Below are positions 17,101-62,900 of a stretch of DNA of 64,000 nt, one piece after another. Made by a program: the position numbers and the translations under genes. The DNA lies in NCBI GenBank assembly GCA_007449985.2, contig VIIQ02000004.1, forward strand, positions 992,001 through 1,056,000, in the 5' to 3' direction. The stretch comes from Desmodesmus armatus. Taxonomy: Eukaryota > Chlorophyta > Chlorophyceae > Sphaeropleales > Scenedesmaceae. The notes beneath the pieces were generated by a model. The model was not told the origin of the DNA and ran no database searches. It was given only the letters and a program-made list of their open reading frames with translations. How positions within the stretch are numbered: position 1 is the first letter of the stretch; each line of letters begins with the position of its first letter.

Positions 17101-18371
17101 CAGAGGACGCCGCAGCTAAGCAAGGCACAGCAGTTGGTCCTGCAGCGCAGGAAGGTACAGCAGGAGCAGGAGGAGCAGCGGCGGCAGCAGCAGCAGGAGG
17201 GTGGGCAAGAGGGGGTCGGCAGCAAGCCCGGCTGGCAGTCAGAGGTGTATGTGCCCCCGCCAGCTCGCCTGCTGCGGGTGAAGAAGGGTGGCGCAGCGGA
17301 TGTGTGGAACGCACCGCCTAGCAGTCCGCCACAAGGTATGCCTGTGTCTTGGCTATTGCATGAGGGGTGTCGGTCAACGAAACTGATACGTAGGGGGGTG
17401 GGGTGGGGGGTGGGGGGTTTGTCGATTGTTTCATGCCAAGGTTGAGCTGTCACCACCAACTCGCCTGGTGAGGGTGAAGAAGGGTGGAGCAGCGGATGTG
17501 TGGAATGCACCACCCAGCAGTCCACCACAAGGTAGGTCTTTGTTTGGGCTACTGCTGCTGTATGGGGGGCGTTGGTCAACGAATGTAATTTTGTATGCTT
17601 GTGGCCTGGCTGCTGCTGGAGGGGTGCTGGCAACAGGAGTTCTGAACAAGTTTTACCCGCGGGGGAGGGGGGCTGTTATGTGTTGCACAGGAGTATGCTT
17701 GTGGCCTGGCTGCTGCTTGAGTGGTACTGGCTGACAACATGGGTTGTAAACAAGGTTCACCGTGGTAGGTGAGGCTCTGTTTGTTGTTGAGTAAGTTTAT
17801 CACTCATCCCGTGGGGGAGGCTGCTGTTCAGCTGGCTGCTCTGCAGAGCTGATTGGTGCACGGGTTGGGGCTGAGGTTGTGCTGTCACTCATCCCTTGGG
17901 GAAGCGTGCTGCGCCGCACAGCTGCCAAGCCTTCCTGCCCCTGAAACTGCCCGCACATGCGGCACACATGCATGACCAAACACGTGTATTATTTGAAAGA
18001 TGAACTTCCCAGCACACCTGCAATTGAAACGGGCAGAAAGCTTAGCTGCTGGATGCAGTAATCGCAGCTGTTTGTGTTTTGTGGCATGCGTTGGATTGCA
18101 ACACAAGCATTTGGGAAAAGGCAGGGGATCCTGGCCCAATCAAATCTGCGCTGCTGTCAATCATGCAGGCCCAGCACGGCCCCAGACCAGCCAGGCAGCT
18201 GCTGCCACAGCCCAGCCACCGCGCCGCAAAGCACCGCAGCACGCAGGCAGGGGCGCACAGTCCAAGTCAGCAGCAGGGCGGCGCGGCAAGGGCAAGGGCA
18301 GCAGCCGCAGCGGCAAGCAGAACTTGGCCAGTGTGCTGTACGGCAGCCGCTGGAGGGTGGATGGCGGCCTC

Positions 18372-18415
<44 letters not shown>

Positions 18416-21671: not shown

Positions 21672-24505
21672 CTACCCACCCAGCTCTGCCTTGATGGCGG
21701 CCAGCAAGCGATGCGCCTGCGTCAGCGTCGCACCGATGACCGTCTTGTGGTTGCCGTCATCGTTGTTGAGCAGCTCCCGCACCGACTGCCGCTGCTCGTC
21801 TGTCAGCTGCGGGGAATCGGGGTCAGCGGCGACAAGCACCGTGAAGCGCAGAGGTAGTGTGTGCTCGCGGTCACACTGCAGCGGCTTGTTGAAATGGTAG
21901 GCAACCTGGGAAGGCGACCATTGGGACAGCAGCATTGAGGATCAGCTTCAGATATGGCTCCACGATGCAATTGTTTTCAGAGGAGTCCCCAGCGGTCACA
22001 GAGGCAAAGTTTGAAAGCTGTCCTGGGCATGCACTTCAACATGTGCAGCATAGAACTTGCAAACCAACATGCACTGCACTGCCTTGTCAACCTTTGCGGC
22101 AGGGGCCATGATCCGTACAGTACAGTACAGTAATTGGGGACAGGGCCCCAACCTCGCCGCTAGCCAGCAAGCCTCGTGCTCATGAGGCTCAAGATCAAAT
22201 GTGCTGCATTCATGTTGGCGCCCGCAAACCCAGGTTACGAAGCCTCACAAGCAGAGTGTGCCCCCCTAATGTTTCAAAACCCTGCTTACCTTGTATGCGC
22301 TCCTGAGCAGGTGGGTACCCTTGGGTTCCGTCTTTGACGACAACAGAGCCTGCTGTTTGAGGGTGACACACAGCTCTGGAAAGCTGTTCCCGGACAGCAG
22401 CTGCCTGTACTCGTTGTGCCTGTGTGAATCACCCAGGTGGTGGTCAGCAGCCGCTGCCAGGTGGTTGGGCTGTGCGTAGGCCATGACCTGGGCCCCCTCC
22501 CTCATGAGATGCTTGAGGCTATGCAGCTGCTCAAGCAGGGCGTGGACGGCAGCAGCGGGGGTGGTCAGCAGCAGGGTGACGTCCAACAGCAGCACCACAC
22601 CTGCAATCAGTAATTTGATGTTGGATGTTACACAGAACATTGCCCGTTCAATCATGGCACAGTCACAATTACATTTTGTCAAGATACGTGGGAGTGGAGG
22701 TAGCGGCAAAAGATGAGGGGTGAGTGGTAGTGGCAACACATTGCAGTATCAGCACGATAGTGGCAACACATTGCAGTATCAGCACATAGATTGATGTCAT
22801 GAGCAGTGGGGTGGTCAGCAGCAGGCTGACGCCCAGCAGCAGCACCACACCTGCACGCACGGCATGTCAGAGTGGAGGCAGCAACAAGAGATGACGGGTG
22901 CTGGGTAGTGGCACATGCACTGTCACCGTGTCATGCATACATTCTGTACGTACAGAAGCAGGGGTGGTCAGCAGCAGGCTGCTTCCAGCAGCAGCACCAC
23001 ACCTACACGCATGACAGGTGCGAGTGGAGGCAACGGCAAGAGATGAGGCAGCGGGGGGGAGGCATTCCGCACACACGGCGTCAGCACCCACCCACCTGCT
23101 CCCACTCACCCCATCACACCCCATCCTCAACAACCTCACCTGTTGCGAAAAGCGGCTTGGCCAGGACGCCAGCCAGCGCCCCGCGGTCCAGCGCTTCACA
23201 AAGCTTGTCGAGCGAGGTGGGCAGGTTTTTGAGGTCCACGATGAAATTCTCAGGCAACACTAGCGCCCCGGATGCAAGGTACTCCGCAAGGTGAGCCTTG
23301 GAGTAATCAGTGTCCAGGCCGCACCTGTACGCATACGTCCGTCGATGCGGTCACACAGTCAAACATCAATCAATATTACACCTGTACCTATGAGGCTCGA
23401 GAGCTCGTACCAGCCGTTGACGGATGCCGCAGAGTTGGGGGAAAAGGACCAGAGGGCACACACGGCAGGCAGCATGACCTAAGCCATCCGAGCAGTCGGC
23501 ATCTGGGTATTCTTAGCGGGTCGTTCTGTTTTGGTTGTCAGGCAACGTCACGCGCTGCCCCTGTTGCCCTCGTGCCCACTGTCACAAGCACTGCCACCGG
23601 CATCAGCACAGCACAGGGGTCTGAGCAGGAGATGTCAGGCACCGCCCAAGAAAAGCCACCACAATTCCTGGATGTGCACACCAAGCACCCACAAATGTGA
23701 CTTAGGCTCTTGGATAGTGTTTCGCCTCGTCCACAACAGCAGGTGGCTGGATTTTGAAACTCATAAGTTGTTGCACCCACACACGTGGCATTGATGTACG
23801 TGACGCAAGCAGAGACCACGCTCACTTGTCCATGTGAGGCTTCGAAACCAGCACCACGTGCACCGAGCCCGGCGGCGGCAGCGGCTGGGGATCATCTGGC
23901 GCGTAGACCGTCACGCCACGCTCCCTTGCGATGTTCACAAGGTCCTGGGTGGGGGAGCTCTGTAGTAGGTTGTGGCAGGCAGGGCATGACACACAACAAA
24001 CACATGGATGTTCAAGTCTCGCAAATACTAAATGAAGACAGCACGCGATCTGCATGCGTTTACGTATGCGCACAAACGCCACTTCCACATGAAAATGCAG
24101 AGCTCCTGAAGGCAAATGCATCAACCCACGGTGCACAGCAGTCCTGTCACGGCTTGCAACAGCGCACACACTGCAGAGCAGCACGGTGCAGGCCATCGCC
24201 CAACGCCGGCCCAACGCAGGCCAATTGATATTCAAGCCACATGTGCTGCCTTGGTTTGATGACACAAGGGCTACTTGCCCTCACCCTGTCCTATCCGTAT
24301 CTCCTGCCCACCTCTATCCTTACCTTGCCAGGCACTGCCAGGTCAGCAAAGGCTGCCTCGTCGAGGTACATCGTCAGCCCCGCCAGCCCCTGGCTGCGCA
24401 GCACCTGCAGCACCTGCTCAGGCCCCGGCAGCAGCGGCCACTGCGGCTGGTACCCCGCCAGCACTACCTGCAACGGACTCAGCTCCGGAGGCGGGGGCCC
24501 CGGCA

Positions 24506-24908: not shown

Positions 24909-27900
24909 ACCCTGCTGCTGACCGTCGACGTCCATGTAGCCGTCGTCCATGTTCACGTTCAAGTCCTGCTGCAGGCTTCTGTTCATGGCCATGGCGATGC
25001 GCAGGTGGTTGCCAGTTTCCATGACGGTCTTGATGATCATGCCATCGTAAAAGTGGTCCAGATTGGTGTCAAACAGCCAGGACTCATCGTACATTGACCT
25101 CTCGCCAGTGGGGGTACCTGCTGTGGGGGTACCTGCTGTGGGGGTACTCTGCACAGACGGCGGCAGCAAGTAGCAGCAGGCAACAGCAGTCGGTGCAGGC
25201 AATAGCAGTGGCAGAGAAAGAGCCTTGCGTGCCATCATGCAGAGCGATGGGAGTAGCATCAGCATACACGCCACGTGATGCACCTGCACAATCACCCAAC
25301 TGATGCAGCACATTCTGTTGTAAACGTGGATAGAGCGGCTGTCAATTGGGCACAACTACCTGGACACGCTGCATCACTGATTTGTGAATGACAAAAGTGC
25401 ATCAAAGTGCAGAGGCATAGCTTGGGCACATGCCAGCAGGGTGACGCTTCAACATGTGATAGCACAGGGATTACTTGTGTAGCTAGCATACTATGAACAT
25501 GCAAGTCACATGCAAGCATTCTATGAGGCATGCCTACATAGTCCAACTAGGATGGATGTGTGCGTACCGGCTCGCTTTTGTTCAGCCTCCCATACTCTGC
25601 AGAGGCGCTGCTGTGCTGCAGGTCCTTGAACATCACCAGGCCCAGCTCGTTCTGTAACACACGGGTGGGCAGGGCGGCACACTCCGCAGATGACCTGCAA
25701 CACACGGCACAGCACAGCAAGTGACGTTACAGCATGACACAGGTGCAGCCCAGCATGATTCGTGTCCATGTCAGTCAAGGGGCAGAGCAGCCAGCCAGCA
25801 TGTCAACAGGCAGTGGCTTTGTTATAATTGGTTTTACCGGGGAGGGGGGGCGTATTCCCACTGGCTGGCCACACACAGCGCAATCAGGCAAACCCAACTG
25901 CCGGGGTCAACAGGCAGTTCAGGCCATCACAGCACCCATCCACCCCCCACACAGTAGTATGCCTCCTGGAGATTTACTTGGAACTTCCCTCATAAGCAGC
26001 AAAGACCGGTGGCCCAGCGGCACGGGGAAGGTAATTAGCGCGCGAGGCAAGATTTGAAAGTGGGGTCTGTTGCATGCTGTCCCTGGTGCACCACTGGTGC
26101 AATTGTGGACGCCAGGGCCGTTGGTCATGAAAGAGTTGCCCTCTCCCCCAGCTCACCCTGGCTGCCCTTTTGGGTCACACCAGCAATAGCACAGCACCTG
26201 TGACCACGGCTACACCTGGGGTTGTCTTCGACTGAGCACACTGTGGCCTGGCTGTGCACTGAAAGCGTGCAGCTGCTAGGCAGTAGGAGCCCTTGACGCA
26301 AGGTTTGATAGTTAAGTGCTGAATTTATTCAACAGCATGCATGCTGCTCTGATGTTTGAGCCTTGCTGGCTCCAGCAGCATGGCACTGCGCATGCAGGGG
26401 TACAGCTGGTACAACCAGCTGCATCCCGCACCTGGCATGAGCAGGCACTCTTGAATGAGCACATACGTGCCTGCAAGTAGCTGTTACGTCTACATTCAGC
26501 GTACAATAGCAGCGTGGGCTGCTGCTGTTGTTGCTGTTCAAATCCCGCCTACAACTGAGCAGAATCGCACTGATCCCCCGCGCTTGGTCAGCAAACTATT
26601 ATCGTGCAAAAAAACATTCTGTTTATTTATGATGGAGCTGTACAGCACACCAGCATGGGTCACCGCGAGTGCCACCCATCGATGGTGATGCTGCTGTAAC
26701 CAAGCCTCGCAGCTGCCTGTCCGCATGCAACTGGGTGTCAAATAGGAGCAGGTCAGACCCTCTATCCATTTATGTCCACTAGAGGCTGAGGCGCGGCTGG
26801 GATAGGCAGCAGGCAGCAGGTCACTCTTTGAAAATAAAAAGCTAATTCTTTTCCTATGGCATAAGACGTGAAAGTTAAATCTTGCAAACAGATTCTCAAG
26901 CCTCGCAGCAGCCAGTGACAGAGCCCATCCAACCACGTAAAAGCGAGCAGACACCGAGCGCCACTCACAGTCGGCTGTAGTCCACAGCGTGCCCATTCTC
27001 CCTCAGCACCGGCGCAAAAAACAGCACACCGCCACGGCCCTCCGCACGCAGATACGCCTTGTTGTCCATCATGTGGCGCACAACCGTTGGCAGCTGCGGC
27101 TCGTGGGCAACCTCGGACAACACCATGGGCGCGGGCTCGTCCGGGACCACCGCGAACCGCGCCCCGGTGCCGGCGTCGGCCTCCATTGACAACAGCATGC
27201 CGTGCCGCTCCTGGAACTGGCAGGAGAGCTTGCCGTCGCCCCGCATCTGCTCAAGCATGGGGGGCACCTGCACGCCGGAGCGGTCGGGACCTTCCTTGAT
27301 GCGCACGGCAAAGTTCTGCGGGACACAGCAAGGCCACATGCCAACGGTCAAAAACACAGTCTTGCTGACGGTAGAAGTGAACAGGAGCGCCCGGGGCCCT
27401 TCTTGATGCGCACGGCAAAGTTTTGCAGGGCACACCAGGGGATGTGCCACAGTGGCCACATGCCAACGGTCAGAGACACAGCATTGCTGACCATTGGAAA
27501 TTGAGAGAGATGATGCATCGGCTGCAGCTGCCTGCCAACAGAGTGCTGCGCGCTGCACGCTGCAAAACCATAGTGATCCCGCACACCACAGCAAAAAATA
27601 CAAAAAGCAAAATTGCACGCTGTTTAACATATGTGTACAGCGCTGCCAAGATCTGCATAGCACTCACGAAGACAAAGCTTGGCCCCACCACCTGTGCCCG
27701 GCACCTCAGGGGCCACAGGCTACTGCCAGGGCGGGCTGCTGCCTCACGCTGACGCGCTGCGGCCTGAGCGGCTGCATGAGCTGATGCCAAGCTGCCGGCA
27801 GCTGTTGGTGATGTAGGGAATTCCCCCAGCCCGTCCTGCAGCATTGACAGCAGCCGACGTACGATCCAACCCTGTCGGCAAAAAGGTTGACCCAATTGGG

Positions 27901-35184: not shown

Positions 35185-37044
35185 TGCTGTGGTTGATCCT
35201 CTGCTGCTGCAGCTGCACCTTCGTGCTTCTGCTGCTTGGGTGCTGCTGTAGCCTCGGCATCCAGAGAAGGGGCTGTGGCAAGCTGCTGCTGCTGCTGCTG
35301 CTGCTCCTCCTCCTGCTTGACAGCCTTGCTGCCAGCTTCAGCTGCTGCTGGTGCCGCATTGCTGTCACCATCACCCTCATCACCAGCATCAGCAGCAGCA
35401 ACAGCAGCAGCCGCCGCAGAGACATCTGGTGATGCCGCTGCTGCTGCTGCTGGCTCCTCTCGTCCTGCCGCGCCCTCAGGCTTGCATGCAGCAGCAGCAG
35501 CAGCAGCAGCGGCGGCGGCTGCAGCAGTGTCCTCTGCTGGTGCTGCTGCTGCTCCTACTGCTGCTGCTGCTGCTGCTGGAGGCGGTTTGATCAACCCCTG
35601 CTCGATCAGCAGCTGGCGGGTAGGGCCCTTGTAGTCAGCAGGGGGCATGAATGACTCATCCAACTCCACCAACTGCCGCATCACCATCTGTTTCTCCTCC
35701 ATACACTCAACCTTGGCAGTAATGATAGTATCCGCATCAGCAGCACCGCCGCGCCGCATTGCTGCCGCATCGCTGCCGGCGGCGGCTGCCACAGCGGCAG
35801 CAATGGCGGCGGGGGGTAGGCCGGCTGAGCGGGCATGGTACCAACTGAGCAGCTTGTCTTGGTCACTGAGTGCCTGCAGGATTGTGCTGTACGCCGCTCG
35901 CGCTGACTGAAGCTGCGGGTAAAATACAAGTGACAGGGCAGCAAACAGGCGTGCGGGCAGAGCACTTGAGTAGTGGACATTGATGTTTGGTAGGGGGGGG
36001 GGGGGGCAGACTTGCGCTGTAGATTACAACAGCACAAGCAGGCAGGCAAGCAGGACAAGCAGGACAGTGTGCCAGGTGTGGTTGATGGGGTGCATGTTGA
36101 TGCCAAGGAGGGGGTCAAAGGTGGGGCTGAGGTTGCACAGGCTGCCTACACAACACAACACAACATGCCCATGTTGGTTCCATCTGTTGAATCGGCAGGG
36201 TAGAAACCGCCAGGGGTTGGCCCACCTGACACTTTCCACCTGTCAGATTCAAGATCAAAATCAATTTCCAAATCAAAGCATAGATCGAGTATTCCACTTA
36301 TGTGTTCACACACAGCTCATGTTGCTCACCTTGGCTTGCTCTGGAGTCAAGCTGCTCTCCACTGACACTCGTGCTGCTCCTGCTGCTCCTGCAGCAGGCA
36401 TGCCAGCACCTGCTGCTGCTGCTGCTGCCACAGGTGCTGCTGCTGGCTGTGAGAGGCCCAGCAAGGCATCGTCATCCTGCTCCTCCAACTGACGCAGACG
36501 CTCCTGCACACAGCACAGACATGACTTCAACTGTAGACTCCATGATTGTACAAACATAACTGGACTCTGTCATGGATTCATGACACCTGCGTATACATCA
36601 GATAGCTACTACTGGAAAGCTGTTGGTCTGCCCAGTTCAACCAGTGTGACGAGCACCGCCCAGCAAGGACAGTATCCAGTCCTGACACCCCCTTCCCAAG
36701 TGTACAAGATGTACATTCGTATTGACACCCCCCTCCCCCAAAAAAAACACATCATATCAGACAACATACTGCCACCACCTCAGTCTTCCTCTTCCTTTCA
36801 TCCAAAACCATCAATCAAACCTCCCACAGTCACTAAGTAATAAATATATAAGTAATAAATATATAAGTAATAAATATAATTTCATCCAACCCCATCAATC
36901 AAACCTCCCACAGTCACTAAGTAGTACACAAGCACAGGAAGACCATCTATTCAACTGCACAACACTGTGGCTGTCTCCTCCGAACATGTGTCCATCCATT
37001 GGGTCTACCCACTTCATCCAGTGTGGACAGCATCAATAAATCAA

Positions 37045-37104
<60 letters not shown>

Positions 37105-37129
37105 AAATAAATAAATAAATAAATAAATA

Positions 37130-37164
<35 letters not shown>

Positions 37165-39819
37165 AAATAAATCAATCAATTGACGCCCAGTGCTCAACAG
37201 CATCCATCCATGCCACCCCCCTTTCAACACCATGCACTGCCCCCTACCTCTGTTTTCTTCTTCCTCTCTGCCCGTGCAGCAGATATCCTCAACTCCGCTG
37301 GCATCTCCTCCGCCCTCTTGCCCGCCAACACCCCCACAGCCTTCAACACTGCAGCACTGCCAGCAACACCCCCCAAGCTGCCCACACTGCTCGAGCTACT
37401 GCCCGGGGCCGATGCCAGCGCTGCTGCTGGGTATTGTATCCCTGCTGCCGCTGCTGCTGCGGGTGCGGAGGCTGCAACTGCTTGTTGGTGCACTGCTGCG
37501 ACGCCGGGGACTGACAGGGGGACTGAAATCGGGGCTGACATGAACACTCCTGCGAGGAGGCAAGGGATGTGTCAGTTGGTCGGAAGGACAGGGGATAAGC
37601 GCGGAGAACAAAACGCAGGGTACGCTTAGCAAGCACAACTTGGCAGAGTTTCATGGATTACGGTCCAACCATGCAACATCAACAACAGCAGCAGTACCAG
37701 TACCTGCAACAGTCGCAGTGATGATGCAACAGCAGCAGTAGCGGTAACAGACAAAGCAGTAAAATCAGTGCGTACCGGGCATTGCTCCTGGTGCCGAAGC
37801 CAGCGTCACCCCTGGAACACTGGCAAGAGGAACAGCCCCCGGCGCTGTCGCCACCGGCACCCCCCCTGGTGCCGTCGCCAGCTGCACCCCTCCTGGCGCA
37901 GTAGCAAGTGACCCCACTCCCCCTGGTGCTGATGCTACCACACCCACACCCGATGCATCTCCTGCAGCTCCTGCTGCTGCCCCTGCTGCTGTCCCTGCTG
38001 CTGCTGCTGCACCTGCAGGCCCTGCTGCCCTACCAGCCATAGCAGTAGCCATAGACACGGCTGACAGCGCTGCATCGTGGTGTGCGGATAGCAGCGACGG
38101 GTGCGGCAGCGCCCGGTTGCCCTGCGTGATCGCCAGCGGCGCCGGGGCTGCAAACATCGGCGCGTGCGCGACACCTGCCGCACCGCTTGGGGAGCTTGCA
38201 GGATATGCCGCCGGCGCTGCTGCAGCCACAGGATCAGCAGCAGCAGCAGCGGCGGCGGCTGCGGCAGCAGCAGCAGCAGGGTGGGACCCCGCTGGACCCT
38301 CGTGCACAAAGTAGCAGCTGTTGCCGTGCTGACACAGACCAAGCTTCCACATCCTGCAAGGGTGGGGGTACTTCGGAGTATGTACTGCTGGCTCCGGCTG
38401 CCCTACCGGCGGCTGCTCCTGCTCCTGACTAAACACACTCTCCCCTGCCGCTGCTGCTGATAATGATGTCTGTAGGGATGCTTGTGCTGCTGCTGGGGTA
38501 TCCCTGGGTGTGGTGGGAGGTCTGTTGCGAGGGGCGTTTGTGGCGGGAAGCCCTGTTACTGCTGTCATCGGGTTGACCCCGGCAAGTAGCATCGCAGGAG
38601 CCCAACCCATTGCTGCTGCAGCAGCGGCAAGTGCTGGCCAGTTGCCCTGGAACCTCTCTTTCTTCTTAGTGTGACCGTGAGTGTGACCGTGGGGTCCGGC
38701 ACCTGCCGCTGCTGCTGCTGATGCCGCTGCTGCCAGCGCAGCGCTGCCCTGCTGCTGCAAGGCAGCTGCTGAGACTCCTGCTGCTGGGTCTGCCCCTGCA
38801 GTGGTACCAGCAGCAGCACCAGCAGCATCACCCTCCTCCCTAGCCCTCTTGCCAGCAGTAGGACTGCGATCCTTACTGCTGCGCCGCTTGCGGTCCCTGC
38901 TCCTGCTCCTGCTTTTGCTGCGGCCTCTGCTGCTCTTGCCCGCTGTGCGGCCTGCACTGCGGCTGCGCGCGCGCTCCCCGGCGCCATCCCTACGCTTGCT
39001 GCTGCTGCGCTGCTTTTGCTTGTCCCTGCTGCTGCTGCGCTTGCGTTGCCGGTCCCTGCTGCTGCTGCGTTGACGGCCGCTCTTGCCCCTACTACTGCTG
39101 CGCTTTCTTGACCCCTGTTTGTCTCGCCCCTTGTCCCTGCTCCTGCTGCGTTGCTGCTGCTGCTGCTTTGGTCGCTCGCGGTCCCGGCTGCTGCTGCGTT
39201 TGCGGGACCGTCCGTCCCTGCTGCTGCTGCGCCGGCGGGTGCGTTTGTCCCTACTGCTGCTGCGGGGTCGCGCTCTGCCGCTGCTGCGTCCTGTGGGGCT
39301 GCGTTGCCGGGAGCTGCGCTCCTTGCTGCTTCGCCGCTTGGGGCTGCGGCTGCGGCTGCGACGTCTTCCTGGCTGCTGCTGCCCCTCCTGCTTGCCTGAT
39401 CTGCCATCCCTGCTGCGGCTGCGTTGGCGTATGCTGGATTTGAGCTGCCTGCTGCTGCGCTTGCCATCGCCGCGCTTCAAGGACGAGGACTTGGGTTGAG
39501 ACTTGTCTCTTTCTGGACCCTGCTCCTTTTCCTGCTCCTGCATCTGCTGCTGTTTCTGCTTCTGTGTGCTGGTGTCTGCAGAGTCTGCTGCTTCTGCAGG
39601 TTGTGCAGGAGACTGCTGCTTGTCACCTGCTGCATCACCGTTTGCGTTGCCTTCCGATTGTCGGGCTTCATGCTCAGGCGAACCTGCTGGGCTGCTGCCG
39701 TGGCCATTCATTGCTGGGCTGCTGTCACCTGACTGCTTCTGCTGTTGCTGCTGCACTGCAGCGGTCTCAGGCTCTTCACTAGCTGCATCCTGCGGGACGC
39801 TGTCCTTATCTTCATTCAT
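33222..39819 (-). CDS. SR-rich CCCH zinc-finger protein with Pro/Gln-rich C-terminus, two apparent frame breaks
   Basis: Likely RNA-binding nuclear protein (splicing or mRNA processing), inferred from architecture. Exons: 39819-37776, 37549-37248, 36503-36330, 35912-33222; phases close. Residues about 110-330 are an arginine/serine domain with many SRSRD and RKRSSSRD units. Near residue 495 a single CCCH finger (C-x7-C-x5-C-x3-H, in PCRMWKLGLCQHGNSCYFVH) follows. Exons 2 and 3 hold ERKKKTEERLRQLEEQDDD. Exon 4 starts LQSARAAYSTILQAL and contains DYKGPTRQLLIEQGLIKPP and GFMLIRKNNLMPQRKAVF. It ends in a long Pro/Gln/Gly/Met region closing with NPYAALYGQRR. In exon 4 the frame must shift near 34680-34735 and again in the ten-base C run (sense strand) at 34191-34200. 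Both lie in low-complexity sequence, so sequencing indels are the likeliest cause. Confidence 0.75.
33313..33351 (-). repeat. CAG tract coding poly-Gln
   Basis: About 14 triplets read as Gln near the C-terminus of the CCCH protein. Further shorter CAG blocks are scattered through 33290-34700. Confidence 0.9.
36808..36925. repeat. Direct repeat beside the AATA array
   Basis: The string ccatcaatcaaacctcccac and its continuation agtcactaagta occur at 36808-36839 and again at 36890-36922, separated by AT-rich taataaatatataag units. It lies in the intron between exons 2 and 3 of the CCCH gene. Confidence 0.85.
37031..37181. repeat. Compound AAAT/AATC tetranucleotide array
   Basis: About 150 bases of tandem aaat units followed by aatc units, in the CCCH-gene intron 36504-37247. 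It is strongly AT-rich in an otherwise GC-rich window. Confidence 0.95.
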
Positions 39820-40444: not shown

Positions 40445-41250
40445 ATGGGTGACTTCAGTTTCCTGGACTCGCAGCCGCCCCTACAGCGCAACAGCAACAG
40501 GTGCGATGATCCACACATGCCTGCCTAAGTCCATGGTGGTGGAATGGTGGTGTAAGGGGTGCAAGAACAGCTGCTTCATCGCTGCCTTGTTGACTGCTGT
40601 GGTGTGACCAACCTACGTCTGTATTCTGGGGGTTTCAAGTTAGGGGGATCGGCATGTGATGCCTGCCAGCCTGGTTCATTGCAGGCAACAACAACAGCAG
40701 CAGCCCCCAGCACCTGGAGCAGCTGGCGGCAGCAATGTGGCAGCCGCAACCCCATATACGTCCCAGCAGCAGCAGCAGCAGCGTGCGCGCATTCAGCTGC
40801 CAAGCTTCCGCCAGGTGGGGTGTCAGTGCTGCACCAGCATGGCAAACCTGCAGCGGAGGTTCTGCTGGTCATGCTATCCGTCAGTCCACATCATTGCCAT
40901 GAACGCATGCCGCTGCTGTTCACCTAGCTATACAGGCAGCAACAGCTGACCCTACACGCACATTAACATGTTTGAAAAAACGGGCGGAAGCCTTTGGGAA
41001 GCAGGTGCTTGCCCACCCCAAGAAGGTCAATGGAAAGGTGTTCTTGCAAAGCCGCAGCCGTTTTGCAGGAAAAGAATCTCAGTGGTTTTGCGTGCATTAC
41101 TGCCACCTTGGCAGCTGTGGCCAGCAAGAACGACGAACGGCTCATCAACATTGCTGGTGCATCGCACAGGTACAAGCAGCAGAGGCACCATCGAAACCTG
41201 CCAACGCATTCAGACCGGCAGCGAGCGGCACCCAGCAGCAACAACAGCAA

Positions 41251-41285
<35 letters not shown>

Positions 41286-44200
41286 GCCGGCATGGCTGCA
41301 GCAGCAGCAGACGCCAGCACCTGGTGGTGCCGCTGCCAACACTAGCACAGCGGCAGCACCACAGCAACCACAAGCAGCCGCCGCCGCCGCAGCAGCAGCA
41401 GCAGCAGCGCGGCAGCAGCCGTCGTGGATGGCCTCCCTCCCTTCCATGACCCTCAATACCCAACTGCCGCGGTTCAGTCAGAAAGCAGGGGGTGCTTCAG
41501 TTGGAGCTGCCATTGGTATCGCAAGGCCAAGCGTACCCCTGCCGCAGTCAGCAGCAGCTGCTGCTGCTGCTGCTGCTGGAGGGGGGCTTGGCAGCCATCC
41601 AGCTGGCGGGCAGCAGCAGGTGGGTCCAAGTGGTCTTTTGCTGGCCTTAATTTAGGCAGATGCCGCATTGGCAATGGAGGTAGCGGTATCACAAGACTAC
41701 CGTTACGATTACTGGCGTGTTCTTGCTTAGACCACCCTCGGTGTAGATGTTCAGGGTCGGACATGCACTTTCATGGGGGTTGTGCATTCGTAAACCCCAG
41801 GCATTGCCATCTACATGTTTCCATATATATGGAAGAATTGGGTCCCTGCAGTATACAGGGGATTGCTGTAAGAAGTGGTGCTGCACCTAGCACCGGAGTT
41901 GTTGCTGTAACCAACGCAGGGGCCTGCTTGCTATCAAGCACTGACCTGCCAATGCTCCTTTGGTGCTGTGATGTTGGCAGGCAGGTGCCATGTCGGGAGG
42001 TGCTGCCGGCCCCTCTGCCAGCCAACCACCGCCGGCGCTGCCGCAGCCGCAGCAGCAGCAGGTGCCTATCAATGCAGTGTTGGTCAGCAGACGTCAACAG
42101 GGCAACCCCGTCCTGAAACACATCAAGTAGGTGCACAGCCTTCTTTTGGAAAGTCCGTCTATGTGCGGCTTTCACCTATTCAGTTTGTGTCTAGCTTGTG
42201 CCTCTTTCACCTTCTAGCTGGATCCATGCTTTGTGTGCTGTGCACGCAGTAAGCCAGAGTAATTTATGGATACCTGCAAATTTGAAGGAGGGGTGGTGGA
42301 GAATGCTTCTCCAAGTGTGAATCGTCCCAAATCTGGTAGGCAGTGCCAATCATATCTGGGGCGGATGTGTCTACCTGCAACAACACCCCTTTGCTACAAC
42401 CACCACCACCACCACTCCCCCACCCACCACCACCCCACCCATGTCTTGTTGCTGCCTGCAGGTCAGTGCGCTGGGTGTTTGCAGACATCGTGCCTGACTA
42501 CCTCTGTGGCCAGAACACAGCTGTGCTCTTCCTTAGCCTCAGGTGGGGCCTGTGGGAGGGCATGTGATGGGATGCCGCACCGCACTGTAGTGTACTGTAC
42601 TGGCACACCCTGCATTGTGCTTGAGGTGGTGAAAAGGTCGGAGGAGGGCAGTGTCGGGATGGGCGGTAAAACCTTGTCATCCTGGTGATCGACATGGGTG
42701 CAGTGAACAAACGTTCCACCAGACTCGAGACAGGACTGCGCTCATAAACAGTCATGCCTATCCCTGTTTGATCTGCATTTCTTGGTTTCTACTTCAGTCA
42801 TCATGCGTGGTTTTGTGTACCTGCGCCGTACTGCAGGTACCACCTGTTGCAGCCGGAGTACGTGTTGTCCCGCCTGCAGGCCCTGCAGCGTGCGTACCGC
42901 CTGGCCGTCCTGCTGCTGCTTGTGGATGCTGAGGAGGTGAGTTGCACTGCATGTTTTTGTTGTGCGTGCGATGCCACATGTATATGCTCGTGAACCCACA
43001 TATGACTGGCACTTGGAATTAGTTGCTGAGGAGGTAGGTTGTGCGGCGTGGTGGCGTACTGCATGGGTGGCCAGAGATGCACCCATGCACCCGACAATGA
43101 CTGTAACTGGGAAGTGGGGTTTTTTAGCAAGGCTGAGCGTGAGGCACTGGGCAACACTGAACTGTACTAGCCCAAGGTGGGGCCTTAGTCTTTAGCACCG
43201 CTTTTGGGACTCCTGTACTGTACTGCCAGTGACCTCATCATACTGTACTGTACTGACTGCACTGTACCGTACCGTACCGCACTGTACTGTCACACCGTTG
43301 CATTGCGATTCAGGTGGTGAAGCCGCTGCTTGAGCTGCACAAGGCCACCCTGGGTGCCCATGCGGTGCTGGTGTGCGCTTGGAGCAATGAGGTGGATGGG
43401 GAAGCTTTTGGGTGCAACCACCCAGTGTCAGTGCGCAACTCAAGTGCCCCACCCAGTGTGAATGCACCTGCAAGTGTGAATGCACCTGCAAAAAAAATGC
43501 ACCTGCAAGTACACATTGTGTGCGCCCTCGAGCAATGAGGTGGATGGGGCCACTTTTGGGTGCTAACACTCAACATGAGTGCGCATGTAACAAATGCAAA
43601 ATGCACCTGCAAGTACACATTGCGTGCGCCCTCGAGCAATGAGGTGGATGGGGAAGCTTTTGGGTGCACCCACCCAACATGAGTGCGGATCCAACAAATG
43701 CAAAATGCATTTGCAAGTACATGTGGCGTGCGTCTTGACCAATCAAGTGGATGGGTGTAGGCATTCCTAGCGGCATGCGGTTGGCATTTACCAGGCGTAT
43801 TGATCATTGGCTGCTTTGCAAAAGCATCCGATGTTCAATATGCTTGTTGGATGCCAATCGCATGCTGCTAAGAATGCTGCACAAAGGTTTTGTGGTGGTT
43901 CAGGATCCAGGACAGGTCGGCATTGTGCTATGCCTTTCCTTGTCTGAATTTGCCCTCTAGATTGGGGGGGGGGGGGGACCTCCTTCCTTGTGCTTTACAT
44001 GTGTGTCGTTGCGGCGTGCTGTGCTGTGCCGTGTCGTGTCGTGATGCATGGTGTTCTCTACAGGAGTGTGCCCGCTACATTGAGACCTTCAAGGCATATG
44101 AAAACAGGCCGGCATCTTCCATCATGGAGCACACAGACACAGGTACAGGGGGGGGGGGGGCACCCGTGGGACAGGGGGGGGGACCTGCGGGTGCAGTTTT

Positions 44201-47310: not shown

Positions 47311-49518
47311 CAACTGCTGGACATTGTGTGACGTGTACACGGCGTGTCTAGCAGCGTCAGCTGCTCTGTTCGCGACCCTGATGCTTCCATGTATGGTCAC
47401 TAACTAGTGGACTAGTGACACGGTGTCACGGACCGTGGTGTGTGACCGGCTGCTAGTTGCACCTCTGCCATTGTGCTGTTACGTAAGTGAGTGTGCTTTA
47501 TGCACTTGTACATTTGTAATTGCATAAGCATCACAATGATCAAGATGGACTCTGAATGCATCGCAGTGCAGTGCAGAGGAATGCCTGCTATACACTGTCA
47601 GGCTGTGAAAGGAGGTGTTGTTGGCCCTGATTACATTGCCAATGCAACGGTTGCCGCAACCTGGCAGGTAGGAGCAATCATGGCTCAACAACGCAGCCAG
47701 ATTGATAGGATTAGGCAGGTAGGAGCATGGGCTTGGCAATGGATCATGGCGACTGTCGTGGTATGGAGGAAGCAGCGAATCAAATATCTTTCACGCAAAC
47801 ACATTCGCCACACATCGATGGCACTGCTTACCAGGGTTGAGCCGGTTGAAACCCTAAGGTGGGGATGTACCCCAGCCGCCATCATTGGTTTGCACCACCT
47901 ACATCAGATTTTAGCCAGTTTGTGTGACAAGGCAGCAAACTTTGGAGCCATCATCAGCTTGAAATTACATTTGCTCTGTGGGGCGACAACTCTGACAGAC
48001 TTGCATGTTGAGCAATGAACCCAAAGTCATGTGGCATTGCAGCAAGTTGCAGCGAGGAACCTGGCCTGCCTTATTTCAATGCAATACAACCAACGTGTGA
48101 ACCCTCGCCCAGTTACATCATGGTCGGTAGACACGGTTCAAACATTGGCCCGTTCGCCGCACCACACAGCCTGCCGGGCATATTTGCCCCAATGAGCTTG
48201 CTTGTGCTTGCGCTGGCGACCCCCCCCCCCCCCCCCGCGGGGCCCGTGTGTCACCTACCCACACCGCCCTGGCGTCACCCAACACTATCTTTGCTGTGCC
48301 ATGTGGTTGGTACAGCTGTCCATCCTGCGGTTTGTTGTACAACTGCGTATTGCAGCAGTGCATAGGCGGCAATCCTGGCGCACCATAGCAGTCACGTCCA
48401 AACACCACCCATCCCGTCAGCGCGAATGGCACTGCACTGCACCTGACGTTCATGCCACTCCACGAAAATGACGGCCGGAAATCCGCTGCCATGCGTCAGG
48501 AGTTAGCAAAACACAGCATTTGCCAGCCATACCATGTCAGGAGTCAGCATTCAGCAGCCCCCCAAACAGCGATAAGACACCTGGCAACCGGCAAAAGCGG
48601 CAGGTTGTGGCAGCTGCAAGCGCACATGGGCCTTTCACTTGCTTGAAAATGGCCCTCGCATCAGCACCACACAAAAGCTTTGGTAGAACATAGTAGGCTG
48701 CTTTTGGAAATGCAGCAGCTCCAACACCATCAACACAATCCTCTCGCCAACGGATGAAATCAACTTGTTGCTAGCAGCCCAGCCAACCCCTGCGCCCATC
48801 CTGCACTCCCTGCAACTCACAGCACACTCAGGCACCCACGGCAATTGTGCTGAACGGCCTGCTACAAATGCAGGAACATCGCCGACATTCCCCCACAGTA
48901 TGACTGCCAATGGCAGCAATCAACCGCCAACATACTATAGCATGAGCGATGCACGATAGCAGAGCACCTGCAAAACGGCCACAAAAGTGCGCACCAAAAC
49001 AAAACAATCTGCCCATATGCCATCACGCCTCAGGCAGGCCGCCAGCAGCCTTCCAATTCGAAAGCTGCCTGCCATCTGTCTTTGAAGGCACACCCAGCCG
49101 CCTGCCCGCCCGCCAGCACGCATGATGCATCCAGCGGGCCCAGCAGATGCTGCAATGGCCTGCTTGCGGCCGTTTGTCCCCTAGCACACATGCTGCCAAG
49201 TCAGTTGGGGGAGCATGCCAGCCCTGCAAACCCCCAGCACGCTTGCCACAGGCGCATGCTAGCCCTGCTCAGCACATGCTGCCTGCATAAGCTTGCTCAG
49301 CATATGCTGCCTGCCATCTGCCCCTTGCAGGCGTACCACCAGTGTCTGGGTGGCAGGCCCTGCGGTGGCCGGGTGGACAGGTCTAACTGCCTTGCACCAC
49401 ATTGGCGCCAATGCCTTCTGCCACCAACCTCTTCTGCATGGGCTGCCTGCCCCTGTGGCATTGTGGCGATGCAAGCAGACACCCCTGCCCCTGCTGAATG
49501 TGCAGTGTCTTGATGTCA
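47311..49518. other. Intergenic region with copies of the downstream F-box gene tail
   Basis: A TGTAA motif lies at 47515-47519, 205 bases after the BTB-like stop. An open frame at 47491-48018 (+) has no recognisable domain. A poly-C run is at about 48222-48237. Close to 49300-49390 (-) there is a near-identical copy of the last exon of the F-box gene (see 49519-53753). Confidence 0.5.
49265..49390 (-). repeat. Copy of the terminal exon of the F-box gene
   Basis: About 90 bases at 49305-49388 match 49520-49608 at roughly 95%, again reading DLSTRPPQGLPPRHWWYACK and ending in a stop. Part of the shared word gctcagca(c/t)atgctgcctg occurs a third time at 49265-49290. Confidence 0.9.
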
Positions 49519-52033
49519 TCAGCATATGCTGCCTGCCATCTGCCCCTTGCAGGCGTACCACCAGTGCCTGGGTGGCAGGCCCTGGGGTGGCCGGGTGGAC
49601 AGGTCTGACGCCTCACTGTTGACACTGCGGAAGCCCTCGTCAAGGCGCTGGAGCTCCCTGATGGACAGAATGCGGCAGCAACAGCACAGCACACATACCA
49701 ACATGGTGATGTGATGGTCGCTTGGCACACGTGGGTGTTGACCCCCACAGCCCATGGCTCCCTTGCGGGTTGCACGTGCCAGTTTTGTGTTTGTGACTGT
49801 ATCTTATCAGCAGGTATCAGCATGTGCCCGCTGTCACCTTCGCGAGCACAAATGCACGCTGTACAGCACAGCGACCATGCCAGCATAGCATGACATGCAG
49901 GCCTGTGTACTGAGTAGATAGTGCCAAGCAGCACAGGGTGCATTTGCATGGACCATATGCCGCCAGGGTTTCAGTTTCAAGGGGTTCAGGTTCAAGTTGT
50001 TCCCACCTTGTGAGCCTGCCTGTCACACTTGGACACACATCCATCTCAGGACCCAGGTGCAGGTCAAAAAGGAACTGAACAGCCACGAAGAAGACAGAGC
50101 ACAGCACGGCACAGCACAGCACAACACAACACGGAGCAGCAGTCAACATCATGACAATACAGCTGATCCCAAATGGCTGGAGTGGCCAAGGCTTGCGGTC
50201 TATCACCAACACTATGCATGAGTGCTGCCATGAATGTACAGGATTGTACTACAGCACTACCGTACTACAGATAGAGGATTGTACTACAGTAGTACTGCTA
50301 AACCAGGCCTGACAGTGCCAAGCTGCGTGCTGATTCGACATAACTGTGCTGTGTTACTTGCCCATATCGTAGATAGTGTGGGTGCAAGCGTGAGAGGCAC
50401 CACGTACCTGCAGTGCGCTGCGCCTCCAGAGGGCCTCAGGCCAGCTGCTGAAGCCGCTGCCCCACATGTCATAGTCGTGGAGCATGTCGTACGTGCGCCG
50501 CGCAAACCTGAACACAGCCTGCACCATGCATGCAGACAGCCAAACACAACACGCAAGCACTCGGTCAGCGTACACGGAGTCGCGAAGCATGTCGTACATG
50601 CGCCTCGCAAACCTGAACACAGCCTGCATCACGCATGCAAATCACCCAACACACCATCACAAGCCCTCAGTCAGCAGACAAACAGCATGACATGGCAGGG
50701 CATCCGATTCAAAAAGGCTATGGTGTTCATGCCTACACACAGTTGTACTGAAAGGGATGGCTTTGCTGAGCCCCCACAAACCAAAGGAGTGCGCCCCAGC
50801 CTCACCTCAGGCTTTTGTGCCAGCCACCACGCCATGTCCTCACGGATCAGCAAAGATACGCATGTCCTTCATGCATGGCCACACAGTAGAACTAAAGGAG
50901 ATAGCTTTGATATCCCCCCCCCCCCCCCCGAAACAGAAAATTGTGTCCCAGACTCACCTCAGGCTTGTGTGCCAGCCACCACGCCATGTCCTCACGGACC
51001 AAACGCATCTCAAACAACACGGCAGCAGCTGCACGGCTGCTGCTGGTGCTGGTGCTGCTGCCTGCTGCAGCGCCGCTGCTGCTGGTGTTAGTGCTGTGTA
51101 TGCTGGTGCTGCCGCTAATGCCTGTGTGTTGCAGGCACAGGCTGAACAGTACCTGCAGGCATGCAGCAGTTGGAGTGCGTGAGCAAGACTTGATGCCAAG
51201 TCAGTGGATGTACCAACAAACGCATGGAGCGTGCATCAAGAGGCACATTTTTCAAAACCCTGGTGCATCTTAACTGATCTTAGCAGGCATAGAACCCTGG
51301 CCTTACAAACCCTGGTCAACAGCCACCCGATACCTCCTTTCCCCTCGCACCTGCATTGCCTGCTCATGCACCATGCCAGGAATGCTCACAAAGAGCCGCT
51401 GGCTGAATCCATACATGTTGGGCTTGACAGGGCTGCTGTTGGGGCTCCGTTCTACATACCTTCACCACATGCTGCCCACCGTGCAGTCTGTCATTCCACA
51501 GGACCAGACAAAACCCTAGCCTACATCAGGCCTATAGCCACCCTGGAAACCTAGTTTCAAGCCACTCTTGACCGCCCAACACAACTCATGTGTCAACACA
51601 CAGACGCACCTGCATGGCCTGCTCGTGCACCATGCCAGGAATGCTCACAAAAGGACGCTGGCTGAAGCCATACACACTGGGCTTGACGGGGCTGCTGTTG
51701 GGGCTGTTGGCGGGGCTGCTAGCGGGGGAGGGCATGTCCGGCAGGCTGCTGCTGTTGAGCCGCAGCTGGTCCTTGCCTGCAGGGGGAAGCATTACGTAAT
51801 AGGGTCAGTAGGATCTTCTCTATCAATGATAGTACCCCAGCAATATGGCAAGTGAGGTCAACAAAGGCCTGAAAAGTCTTAGGCCCTGACACACAGGTTG
51901 AGCACCGGCCAGCAGGCCGTTTCTAGATGCTGCTGCTGCCTGCCTGCTGCTCTGCGGCTAGCTGCTGGCGTCAGCTGCTGCTTGCCAGCTGGCGGCATTC
52001 CTATCCCAGCCGCCCTGCTGCGGCTGCCGCCGC

Positions 52034-56406: not shown

Positions 56407-57546
56407 AGGAGCTTTAGCGGCGATGGTGGTGGCAACCGGGGCGGCAGCAGCATGACCCTTGTCACATTTCACTCTTATTTTGTGATTTCCAATACCAATA
56501 CCAATATGGCAGGGGTAAACCCTCAATTTCACCCGCACTACCTTGGTCGCCAGCGTATACAGATCCTATAAGCTCCCAGTTGGGGACTGTTTCTTACCCC
56601 ATCGTTGAATAGGCCCCCAACCACTGGGATGTAGGCCTGTTCAACAACACAGTGAGGAGAGGTACCCAACTGACAACTTCATACACGGCCTGCGACCCCC
56701 CCCCCCAGCCTATCCACACACCTCCCTTCAAACTCAGCTACTGCCAGGAAGTAAGGGCTGAGGTCCAGACCTGTTGTATCAGCATCAAAGTATGCTGCTT
56801 GTCCCCTCTCCTGATCAACAGGTGGCCAGAACTCTGCTACTGCCAAGGAGTAAGGGCTGGGATCCCATGATGTAGGAACCAGGCAGCTGCTACACCGCTG
56901 CAGGTTCCCTCCACAATACCCTGCCTAGCCCCTCACCCCCATCCCCCCCCCCCACACACAATTCTTACCTCTCTTCCAAGTCTGCCACTGCCAAGAAGTA
57001 AGGGCTGAGATCCCATGATGTGGGTTCCAGGCAGCTGCTACACCGCTGCAGGTTCCCTCCACAATACCCTGCCCCCCTCCTCCCCCCCCCCCCCACACAC
57101 ACAATTCTTACCTCTCTTCCAACTCTGCCACTGCCAAGAAGTAGGGGCTGAGGTCCAGACCTGTTCTGTCAGCATCAGGAAATGCTGCCTGGTATCTCGC
57201 ACAACACCCCCCCCCACACACACACACATACAATTCAAACCCAATGAATGAAACAACACACCAGCTGGCTGCTTCAAAGTCAGCTCCACAACACACTGCC
57301 CCTGCCCAGCCCCTCTTCCCCTGTCCCCCCCCCCTCCGCCCCCCCCGCCCCACACACACACACCCCAAACCACACCCCCACCTCTCTTCCAACTCTGCCA
57401 CTGCCAGGAAGTAGGGACTAAGGTCCAGACCCGTTATGTCAGCATCAGGAATGCTGCCTGATACCAGCGGCTGCTGATGCCAGTGCTGCAGCCGATGTCC
57501 AGCAACGTGGAGGGGACCGGCAAGCTGTTGCGTGCATGGTAGGCCT

Positions 57547-59583: not shown

Positions 59584-59944
59584 GTTGTCTTGTGGATGCC
59601 GTAGGGCTGGACAGTCTCCAGCAGAAGACCAGCCTGGCAGGTGAGATCAGGTGAATAACAGACGATAGACGGAATGCTGCTGCGGAAAGGTGCAAACAGT
59701 CGACGTGATACTGATCGACAACGGTCTGACACTTCTACGTGACAAGTCGACAACTGTACAGCTCACCAGATTTGGGGTTTGGAGGACCTTACACCCTGTG
59801 TGAACGCTGTCACCGAGACCCAGAGGCTCAGCATGGAATGCTTACCCGCCAGTGATGAGTATGGTTTCTGTTGCGCGTGTCTCCTGTCATGGTTCAGCCC
59901 GCTAGGATGGGTCACTTGAGCATAGACATGAACAGCCTGTGACC
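59584..59944. promoter_or_regulatory. Shared divergent promoter region (methyltransferase / Gln-rich helical gene)
   Basis: 361 bases between opposed start codons. No TATA box is evident. Confidence 0.5.
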
Positions 59945-62900
59945 ATGTCAGGCAAGCAGTTCAAGTCATCAGGCGTTAGGCGCCTTGGTTTGCAGCCGCT
60001 ACAGGTAGACCAACAGCAACACAACTCACACCAACAGCAGCAACCTCAGCAACAGCAACAGCAACAGCTGCAGCAGCAACAGCAACCTGTTCAGGCACAG
60101 CAGCCCAAACCTGCTGCTCTTCCAGCCAGGAGCAGTAAGGCCCAAGCCTTGAGTGCTTTCCGCAGTGCCGTACAAGGCTCCTCCCGTGCTCGCCTCACCT
60201 CTATACAAAAGCAGCAGGATCATGCACCCACCCAGCCAGCACCGCCACCCGCTACCGCAGTCCACCCCCCTGCAGGAGCGAGCATCCATACAACAACGAC
60301 TGCACCAGCAGCACCACCACCAGCAGCAGCAGCAGCAGTACCTACACCTTCTCCTGCCCCTCGACCTGGCACCACCCAAGCACAACTACCCCCAGCCCCG
60401 GCCCTGGCCCTAGCCCCAGCGCAGCTTCCAAACCCCCAGCTGATCCCCAAAGCCACCAAAGCTCTTGACAAGCTACAGCAGCAGCTCAGCAGCCGCACCC
60501 TGACATACCTATACCAGTTTGACAGCCTGATCAGCACAGCCAACAGCACCCTCAGTGCCCTGGCGTCAGCCCTCTCAGCACAGCATGGCAGTAGTGGCCA
60601 CATCTCAGCACGCCCAAATGTCCTGCAGCAGCTTGCGCAAGGCCAGCAGGATGCAGGGCAGGACCCGAGCTCTAGGGCAGGAGAGGTGCTGGAGCTGCTG
60701 CTGCAGCTGTGCATGCAGACTTGGGTAAGGACACGCTTGAAACTTGGCTTTGCCTGGAACTAAAGTTTATGCTGAGTTTGAATGGTGAATTGAATTTAGT
60801 CGTGGTCAAGTGCCCTGAGGCAGCTGGTTTCTTTGCTTTCGGACACGTATGGCATAGCACTGCTGCGTGCCGTGGCTCCATGTCTGATGACTGCCTGTGG
60901 TGTGTGGTGGCGTTTGGCTGGGGCCACCCATCCCTCCGATTGCCGACAGTCAATCACACATATCTGCCTGTCAACGGTGCTGAGGTGTCTCACTGTTCCA
61001 TCCATCATACTTACGCCACCTCACCTGCCCCAAGCCCAAGCTACTGAGGGTGTCAGACCCTGGTCTGTGGCCGTGCAGGAGGTCGGACTGCTGCTGCTGC
61101 TGCTGCTGCATCCATCACATACATGCTACCTCGCCTGCCCCAAGCCCAACTAATCAAAGGTGTTGTAACCTGCTGCTGCTGTGTTGCTGTGCAGGAGGTT
61201 GAGCTGCTGCTGCTGCAGCACCACCATGCAGCAGAGCCCCAGCACACCATACAGCAGGCTGGACAGCTTCATGAGCTAGCAAGGTGTGTGGGGTTGGCGG
61301 TTTTGGTAGGGGTTTGGGGTCGGGTGGGGTGGGTGTGTGTGAGGGGGTTGGGGGCAAAGGGTCTTTTTTGGAGGGGGGGGGAGAAGAGGGGTCACAGCGC
61401 TGCACGAGGATGCCTGTTGCCTGCAGCATCACCATGCAGCAGAGCCCCAGCACACCATACAGCAGGCTGGACAGCTCCAGGAGCTAGCAAGGTGTGTTGG
61501 CACACTCGTTCATGCAGGCAAACCGCTCTTGGTTTTCAAACAGACGCCACAGTTTGACTATCCTTGTAGCACGTGGTGTGCCTGATACAGTTGCTTGCAT
61601 GTGACTTGCATGTGTGCTCTATACAAGCTACACATGTGTCCTCTGTTCTAAACACATAAGCTAATCCCCCCCTGCAGGAAGGTGTGGGAAGCCTGGGAAC
61701 ACCACAGCCTCTCAGAGAGGTCACACATCGCAGCCGGCACAGATGATGCAGGGGCTGTCCTGCACCATGGTGCAGCCCCTGGCGGCAGCAGCAGCAGCCC
61801 AGAGGACAACTGGCCACTCACAGAGACTCTCTGTGCTGCTTTGGCAGTGATGTCTGAGGTGCGGCGGGACTGCCAGCGGCTGCAACAAGGTTGGACTGCA
61901 GGCCGACTTCAAGACTGAAGCAGCAAGCCTGTCATTATAATACGTACGGCACCTGAGGCACAACAGCACAGCACAGCCACAGAACAGAACGACCAGATGC
62001 AGCGTGGTGCTGTCCGCCTTTAGTGGGGCCATCGATATGTGCTTGTTGCCGCAATGCTGTCCCAATGCCATTGTCCCGCCAGATTTCAACTCTGCAGGCC
62101 GCATCAGCCTGGCTGACTGTCCAGCAGCCCAGCCAGTCAGACCGGTGCTACCAGCAGTGGTGGCAACTATTTCCATGTGCTGTTGCGTGATGCCTCAATG
62201 CTGTCGATTACTCGCCCTTTTCCCGCCCTTTTTCGCAACTCTGCAGGCCGCATCAGCCTGGCTGACTGTCCAGCAGCCCAGCCAGTCAGACTGGTGCTAC
62301 CAGCAGCTGCGCATGCACCTGTGCAGCGTGGCAGCAGCAGGCAGCAACACAGCCCTGCGCTTGCAGACACGGCAGGCCCTGCAGAAGCTGCAGTTCAGCA
62401 TTTTGACAGGCAACATGGCACTGGCTGCTCGCCAGAACCAACAGGTGGGTTTGCGCTTTGGGCGGTGGGTACTGAGTACTGTCTCTTGGTTGCTGCCAAG
62501 CTGTTGCAGCCGGCACACTGGCACTCGTGTTGGTCCCTTTTGAAGGATGTATGTCGCTGTGGGCAGATGCGCAGTTCTGATTGACCCCCTGGAAGTCATG
62601 GTGTGCAGTATGCCAGTCTCACAGGGTGTCAATTTGTCATATCTGCTACAGTTACAACTGCACTTCCAGTTCAGTTGAGTCGAGTATGGCTCAACCTTGA
62701 TTGATTAGCTGCCCAGAGCTATCAACACTGTTGTCAAGCGCACCCACCATGTTTCCCCGCTGGGTGTCTTGCCAGCACACAAAGCATGACATCTCACATG
62801 ACGCGTAACTGCGTGTCTGCATTGCAGGCCATGTGGGCCAACCTGACCAGCCTAGTCCAGCAGCTGCTGCAGGAGACAGTCATGGAGCTGGAGGACACAC

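Follow-up and report, generated by a model that had tools for sequence, protein, structure and literature searches.

Internal duplications are common in eukaryotic genes (Gao & Lynch 2009, as cited in a passage of PMC4974935). In the potato RNA-dependent RNA polymerase (RdRp) gene, a tandem duplicate across an intron–exon boundary became a new intron, according to a section of PMC4974935. Rogers 1989 and Hellsten 2011 (cited in a part of PMC4974935) dealt with introns gained when an exon segment containing AGGT is duplicated in tandem, and Drosophila cases of intron gain by tandem duplication are given in a portion of PMC2891723. In Chlamydomonas reinhardtii and Volvox carteri, tandem-repeat density was highest in introns, as stated in an excerpt of PMC3887541. 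Here, we analyzed 64,000 nucleotides (nt) of Desmodesmus armatus DNA, referred to as the window (positions 992001-1056000 of contig C3, within an assembly of 115.8 Mb and 831 contigs), where exon ends recur as extra copies in adjacent introns. These copies probably arose when short pieces of nuclear DNA were repeatedly duplicated in tandem, with no preference for junctions, and then decayed. The kind of duplication is already known; the present example is dense.

Under this explanation, units of about 60-400 nt would be duplicated by slippage, template switching or unequal exchange and placed without preference for exon–intron junctions. As long as the original splice site remained in use, a duplicate would change no protein and so could survive in the intron, where it would be neutral and decay by substitution and indel. 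Duplications inside exons would mostly be removed by selection.

For comparison with the window, 18 stretches of the same genome (14 + 4; 172,916 bases) were sampled at positions picked blind. Window and sample together covered 236.9 kb. Repeat pairs were kept if they were direct, had at most 40% low-complexity sequence, were at most 400 nt long and were spaced less than 2 kb apart. The long arrays in stretches L005 and L009 failed these filters, as did the longest pairs in L004 and L011. When the window was aligned to itself with BLAST, 36 direct pairs lay less than 3 kb apart, versus 3 inverted pairs, all three self-palindromic. For window plus sample, 58 direct versus 5 inverted near pairs were left after the filters, which included self-palindrome removal. 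Three dinucleotide-preserving shuffles of every sequence produced 0 pairs, direct or inverted. These results confirmed that short near direct duplications are present far beyond chance. The first-pass annotation of the window had claimed that the copies share one orientation and had proposed a self-comparison with a shuffled control; on the existence of the copies, the results agreed with it.

Within pairs, the highest identity was 100% in the sample and 98% in the window, and the lowest was about 71%, in line with the proposal of the first-pass annotation that short local duplication is ongoing. At least one kept family was found in 10 of the 18 sample stretches. Contiguous tandems of 100% identity were observed in L008 (554/624) and L015 (2779/2852 and 5833/5927). 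Longer tandem arrays lay outside the counts, in L009 (3079-4079, 500-nt unit, 100%) and L005 (84-5463, unit of about 772 nt, 99%). The duplication process is not confined to the window, which is a rich spot.

After filtering there were 41 families (19 in the window, 22 in the sample). Five of them were wholly coding (3 + 2; in the window 28202/29880, 35381/35489 and 39027/39152) and stood outside the junction test. Gene models were ab initio predictions of a small gene finder trained on window plus sample, whose splice consensus after training was donor MAG/GTGAG and acceptor TGCAG/G (the slash marks the junction). The hand-corrected window models were made knowing the finding, and automatic models were run separately. 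Each family was shifted at random within its own stretch, and contact with predicted splice junctions was counted. With the automatic models, 16 of 36 families touched a junction, against 15.7 ± 2.8 expected at random; with the hand-corrected window models, 17 of 36 did, against the same expectation. A stricter margin with the automatic models gave 12/36 (14.2 expected), and use of the best pair per family only gave 14/36 (15.0 expected). In the sequence examined, the duplications showed no special affinity for exon ends. An enrichment above about 1.35-fold would probably have shown at this sample size. The earlier view that exon ends are special targets did not hold: in 236.9 kb, copies occurred at exon edges no more often than at other positions, an outcome which that annotation had itself named as speaking against it. 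Because exons and introns are short, junction contact is somewhat above four in ten at random, and a duplication of 100-250 nt often spans a junction. The exon part is the portion best recognized by a reader or by BLAST.

Each named example in the window was aligned in gene orientation. One of the genes is called F-box-like below, a putative name that follows the first-pass annotation; Pfam gave it no support. The parents and copies, together with two intron-only duplicates, are as follows.

17243-17381, plus strand: end of exon 16661-17335 of a glutamine-rich gene with its donor, parent
17439-17583, plus strand: copy of the 17335 exon end and donor (GTAGG; 17531) in the downstream intron, by alignment; exon part 78/93, intron part 37/52
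17593-17761, plus strand: intron-only local duplicate, 17593-17657 / 17693-17761, by self-BLAST
22551-22605, minus strand: start of exon 22290-22600 of the gene at 21.7-27.8 kb with its acceptor, parent
22802-22855, minus strand: first copy of the 22600 exon start and acceptor (22850), exon part with a 1-nt deletion
22953-23007, minus strand: second copy of the 22600 exon start (23002), exon part with a 1-nt deletion
27277-27369, minus strand: start of exon 26969-27315 of the gene at 21.7-27.8 kb with its acceptor, parent
27384-27491, minus strand: copy of the 27315 exon start (27422), acceptor AG changed to AA, by alignment
36796-36926, plus strand: intron-only local duplicate, 36796-36842 / 36880-36926, by self-BLAST
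43371-43437, plus strand: end of ERCC1 exon 43314-43391 with its donor, parent; homologues back this exon end
43518-43755, plus strand: three copies of the ERCC1 exon end and donor (43518-43585, 43624-43687, 43724-43755), with exon ends at 43539, 43643 and 43746 (parent 43391)
51605-51705, minus strand: end of exon 51610-51792 of the F-box-like gene with its donor, parent
51346-51446, minus strand: copy of the 51610 exon end and donor (51351), exon part 86/96
50923-51001, minus strand: end of exon 50958-51152 of the F-box-like gene with its donor, parent
50771-50849, minus strand: copy of the 50958 exon end and donor (50806), exon part 42/44
50473-50569, minus strand: start of exon 50408-50518 of the F-box-like gene with its acceptor, parent
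50578-50675, minus strand: copy of the 50518 exon start and acceptor (about 50623)
49297-49613, no strand assigned: pair 49297-49392 / 49519-49613, 96% identical, by self-BLAST; weak splice sites
57379-57463, minus strand: end of methyltransferase exon 57382-57538 with its donor, parent
56719-57194, minus strand: the methyltransferase exon end, copied four times (57110-57194, 56967-57013, 56830-56890, 56719-56801), ending at 57112, 56969, about 56830 and 56722 (parent 57382)
61190-61292, plus strand: exon 61195-61283 of the last gene, parent of a donor-side copy
61401-61500, plus strand: copy of the 61195-61283 exon end and donor (61491)
60993-61100, plus strand: copy of the 61195-61283 acceptor region (61079), from parent segment 61103-61216
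62184-62306, plus strand: start of exon 62247-62444 of the last gene with its acceptor, parent
62040-62157, plus strand: copy of the 62247 exon start and acceptor (62098), exon part 59/60, intron part 47/63

For splice-site scores and flank tests, the 50518 junction was placed at the second AG, 11 nt into the exon. All exon-end copies named in the first-pass annotation could be aligned, and the only one whose exon status is in doubt is the 49297/49519 pair, that annotation's F-box exon 8. Its statement that the copies always include a splice junction was true of nearly all listed copies, because the examples were so chosen; it failed for the intron-only and wholly coding duplicates, and the 27315 copy had lost its AG. 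Nearly all listed copies span an existing exon–intron junction rather than a segment inside a coding exon. The aligned copies carry a single exon end, never a whole exon with both splice sites. In 17 window alignments, where each copy of a multiply copied parent was entered on its own and the 49 kb pair was not included, differences were found at 106/915 exon sites and 110/556 intron sites. The ERCC1 and 22600 copies had frame-breaking indels within their exon parts.

Similar copies were seen in genes of the sample. In L011 (543-1073), presumably a VDAC-like (porin) gene, the exon end was repeated three more times with a period of 135-139 nt, each time followed by GTGAGTGG. All four versions were identical over the 29 nt preceding the donor, and the introns between them were G-rich. 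An AG precedes each 29-nt copied end, and the same AG lies inside the parent's predicted exon 320-592. In L017 (1528-1933), which we take to be a cyclophilin-like gene, one exon was copied on both sides, with its start repeated on the upstream side and its end on the downstream side; the latter copy matched at 35/35 positions. In L014 (1393-1610, minus strand), a gene assumed to be light-harvesting-like, the exon start was copied 174 nt upstream with 95% identity.

Six window queries were searched against Pfam. The ERCC1 gene matched Rad10 (E 2.8e-41), the methyltransferase gene matched a class I methyltransferase, and the remaining four had no match. The best named homologues of these two genes were from Chlorophyceae. 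The ERCC1 protein was 70% identical to that of Scenedesmus sp. PABB004. Among the matches listed, the methyltransferase was 65% identical to that of Tetradesmus obliquus and 62% to that of Scenedesmus sp. NREL 46B-D3, and three closer entries were at 87, 75 and 74%. Judged by these hits, the source is probably a green alga close to Scenedesmus. The gene finder had put the ERCC1 exon end at 43370; homologues favored 43391 (...AWSNE/ECARY). The methyltransferase exon at 57382-57545 (minus strand) has an apparent one-base frame break as assembled, with LDIGCSTGISSRWYQAA and DADITGLDLSPYFLAVAELEE in different frames. The aligned homologues read through this site. An error in the assembly could account for the break, as could a true polymorphism.

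The copied splice sites were scored against used ones. Of 23 copied sites, 21 kept GT or AG and scored at or above the 5th percentile of used sites, and 5 outscored their parent. The 27315 copy passed by its surroundings but lacked AG and was counted as failing; the L002 copy was too near the stretch end to be scored. The suggestion that decoy-like splice sites are left behind was therefore upheld, and judging from their sequences the copied sites could act as decoys. The gene finder itself took copies for exons in three genes (17480-17531; 50806-50838, an extra 11-residue exon; and 56722-56810). These calls are probably wrong, the last because methyltransferase homologues show one version only. 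An alignment of the query with 7 methyltransferase homologues had a single version of the piece in all. In proteins of other species, the methyltransferase motif occurred once in 96 and twice in 0 of the 120 homologues listed of 1783, the motif pattern being unmatched in the remaining 24, and the ERCC1 motif occurred once in 52 and twice in 0 of 77 homologues. As the homologues have one copy, the used exon end would adjoin the exon body, and the splice site beside the exon body is most likely the one used. Introns touched by a duplicate were longer (median 448 nt, n=34) than the others (331.5 nt, n=220). The proposal that duplication lengthens introns was met halfway by this difference, which is no proof, as longer introns are also a larger target.

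Flanks of the copies were compared for intron homology displaced by an indel. Beside the 50958 copy, such homology was found at 41/53 columns, and none of 200 shuffles was as good; beside the 51610 copy it was weak (36/51, P=0.015). For the first 22600 copy, self-BLAST gave displaced homology between 22692-22735 and 22870-22913 (82%). Some flanks held other copies (22600 copy 1, 113/159; ERCC1; methyltransferase), and those rows were not relied on. Breakpoints at the splice site itself were considered for 22600, 51610, L014 and L017, whose alignments end no more than about 5 nt from the junction, and were rejected on the displaced intron homology in 22600 and, weakly, in 51610. Original contiguity was seen in the young sample pairs and suggested by displaced homology for 22600, 50958 and 51610. 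Homologous copies lay near each other in the same orientation within genes, as in internal tandem duplication. As far as the alignments go, the pattern is consistent with tandem units, each roughly 100-260 nt long, having decayed after duplication.

Several observations weigh against this explanation. The window, which was chosen for the feature, was about twofold denser than the sample, with 16 families that were not wholly coding in 64 kb versus 20 in 172.9 kb (P=0.018 if it had been drawn blindly). The flank test found no intron homology beside the L014 copy (P=0.47) or the 61283 copy (P=0.72), and these two copy ends stay unexplained by displaced homology. Tandem repeats are reported to be commoner near intron–exon junctions in Chlamydomonas and Volvox (an excerpt of PMC3887541). 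The remaining points concern the copied coding parts. In a post hoc test, one pair per family was compared in 16 families over exon stretches without gaps, so that frame-breaking indels go unseen; additional copies from 22600, ERCC1, methyltransferase and L011 and the frame-uncertain L002 and 49 kb families were excluded. With kappa set to 2, about 205 synonymous and about 554 non-synonymous sites carried 36.5 and 25.5 differences, respectively. Omega was 0.23 at kappa 2 (bootstrap 0.15-0.39), 0.20 at kappa 1 and 0.26 at kappa 3, and the bootstrap limits across kappa were 0.13-0.42, versus a floor of 0.5 for a freely decaying copy. For a neutral copy beside a constrained parent, the binomial P was 0.0005-0.005. 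No in-frame stop was present in 253 copied codons. With intron divergence as the yardstick, the deficit was weaker, about 22.5 non-synonymous differences observed versus about 33 expected in ten families. Omega stayed at 0.20-0.29 when the Q, 51610 or methyltransferase family was dropped in turn. Speaking against a strong deficit, the share of third-position differences was only modestly high (36/62, P=0.026 versus an assumed 45%), and the frame-breaking indels present had been cut out. The deficit of amino-acid changes in the copies is suggestive only; partial constraint, exchange between diverged alleles or unequal mutability of synonymous sites possibly lies behind it. Nearly all of the pattern is accounted for by ordinary local duplication together with selection; one statistical oddity is left.

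The synonymous excess would be accounted for if selection retained the copies, for at least part of their life, to serve as decoy or alternative splice sites or as alternative exon ends, which we consider unlikely. Individual cases point the same way: the F-box 51610 copy had 7 synonymous and 3 non-synonymous differences over 22 and 74 sites, the L014 exon had 2 and 0, the counted copy of the L011 array had one synonymous change in 48 nt with the two others differing at one site each, and 21/23 copied splice sites had usable scores. However, the copies hold one exon end, so that their use would add intron sequence. The 22600 and ERCC1 copies carry frame-breaking indels, the AG is lost at 27315, and no double motif was present in the 120 listed methyltransferase or 77 ERCC1 homologues. 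The test behind the excess was post hoc, confined to gap-free stretches and drawn from few families. It is correspondingly doubtful that purifying selection at the protein level acts, or for a long time acted, on a considerable fraction of the intronic copies, which would serve as a reservoir of alternative exon ends and competing splice sites. If this were true, the synonymous excess would be the trace of such a reservoir in this alga.

A true preference of duplication for exon–intron junctions, brought about by a mechanism linked to splicing or transcription, is very improbable. The window taken alone leaned toward it, with 11/16 families touching a junction versus 7.7 expected (P=0.067) in the models corrected knowing the finding, and the repeats near junctions in Chlamydomonas and Volvox would agree with it. 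The automatic models reduced the window count to 9/16 versus 7.3 (P=0.27), and the 18 sample stretches gave 6/20 versus 8.1, or 7/20 versus 8.3 with the automatic models. The overall counts, at either margin, stayed close to or below random expectation.

It is also highly unlikely that the second copy is the other allele, left by false assembly duplication in a diverged diploid or by unequal exchange of diverged alleles. This would explain why both copies look coding-constrained while their intron parts differ by about 20%. However, three to five versions including the parent occur in one place (22600, ERCC1, methyltransferase, L011), and the contiguous 100% tandems do not fit it. A second haplotype locus was sought across the assembly with three short exon-end probes and was not found: each matched its own locus only, in a search that scores best candidates only. 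A longer ERCC1 probe matched itself over its full length and otherwise gave only short extra pieces, mostly from the part with glutamine/alanine runs. A dispersed, introner-like mobile element was rejected on the same three probes.

Some further features of the window were noted. Its guanine plus cytosine content is about 58%, and CAG/CTG triplet runs are plentiful. Glutamine/alanine runs are common among the predicted window proteins, and the part of the ERCC1 region that holds them (41216-41426) had short matches on dozens of other contigs. An (AATA)n/(AATC)n run lies at 37024-37180 amid GC-rich surroundings. At 22-11000 (minus strand) lies a large predicted gene, presumably for a kinesin whose motor is C-terminal (RVFCRVRP...).

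Given its density of duplicates, in which old and young copies alike adjoin their parents, this genome is a good natural test bed for how tandem duplication affects intron length and the supply of cryptic splice sites and, possibly, leads to intron gain. In such genomes, automatic annotation may mistake copied exon ends for exons. In limited literature searching, the pattern was not found described for a Scenedesmus-like alga; duplication across a junction has precedents.

Two known arrangements were set aside on comparison. Intron gain by the AGGT model requires a duplicated segment within a coding exon, which nearly all listed copies are not, and mutually exclusive or alternative tandem exons do not match aligned copies that hold one exon end only, the 49 kb pair aside. 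Similar to the internal duplications of Gao & Lynch 2009, as a passage of PMC4974935 presents them, the present ones are local, lie within genes and contain exon plus intron sequence. A difference is that here a partial exon end is usually left in an intron. As in the potato RdRp gene (a section of PMC4974935), the tandem duplicate runs from the end of an intron into the following exon, splice signals included; the potato duplicate became a new intron, whereas the copies here were seen at the DNA level. The survey of Chlamydomonas and Volvox counts adjacent repeat arrays, in the excerpt of PMC3887541, whereas the duplicates here are diverged two-copy ones with exon ends. In the AGGT-model and Drosophila cases (parts of PMC4974935 and PMC2891723), a short tandem duplication likewise supplies splice sites. 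Those segments lie inside coding exons, whereas in D. armatus an existing junction is crossed and the copy stays in an existing intron.

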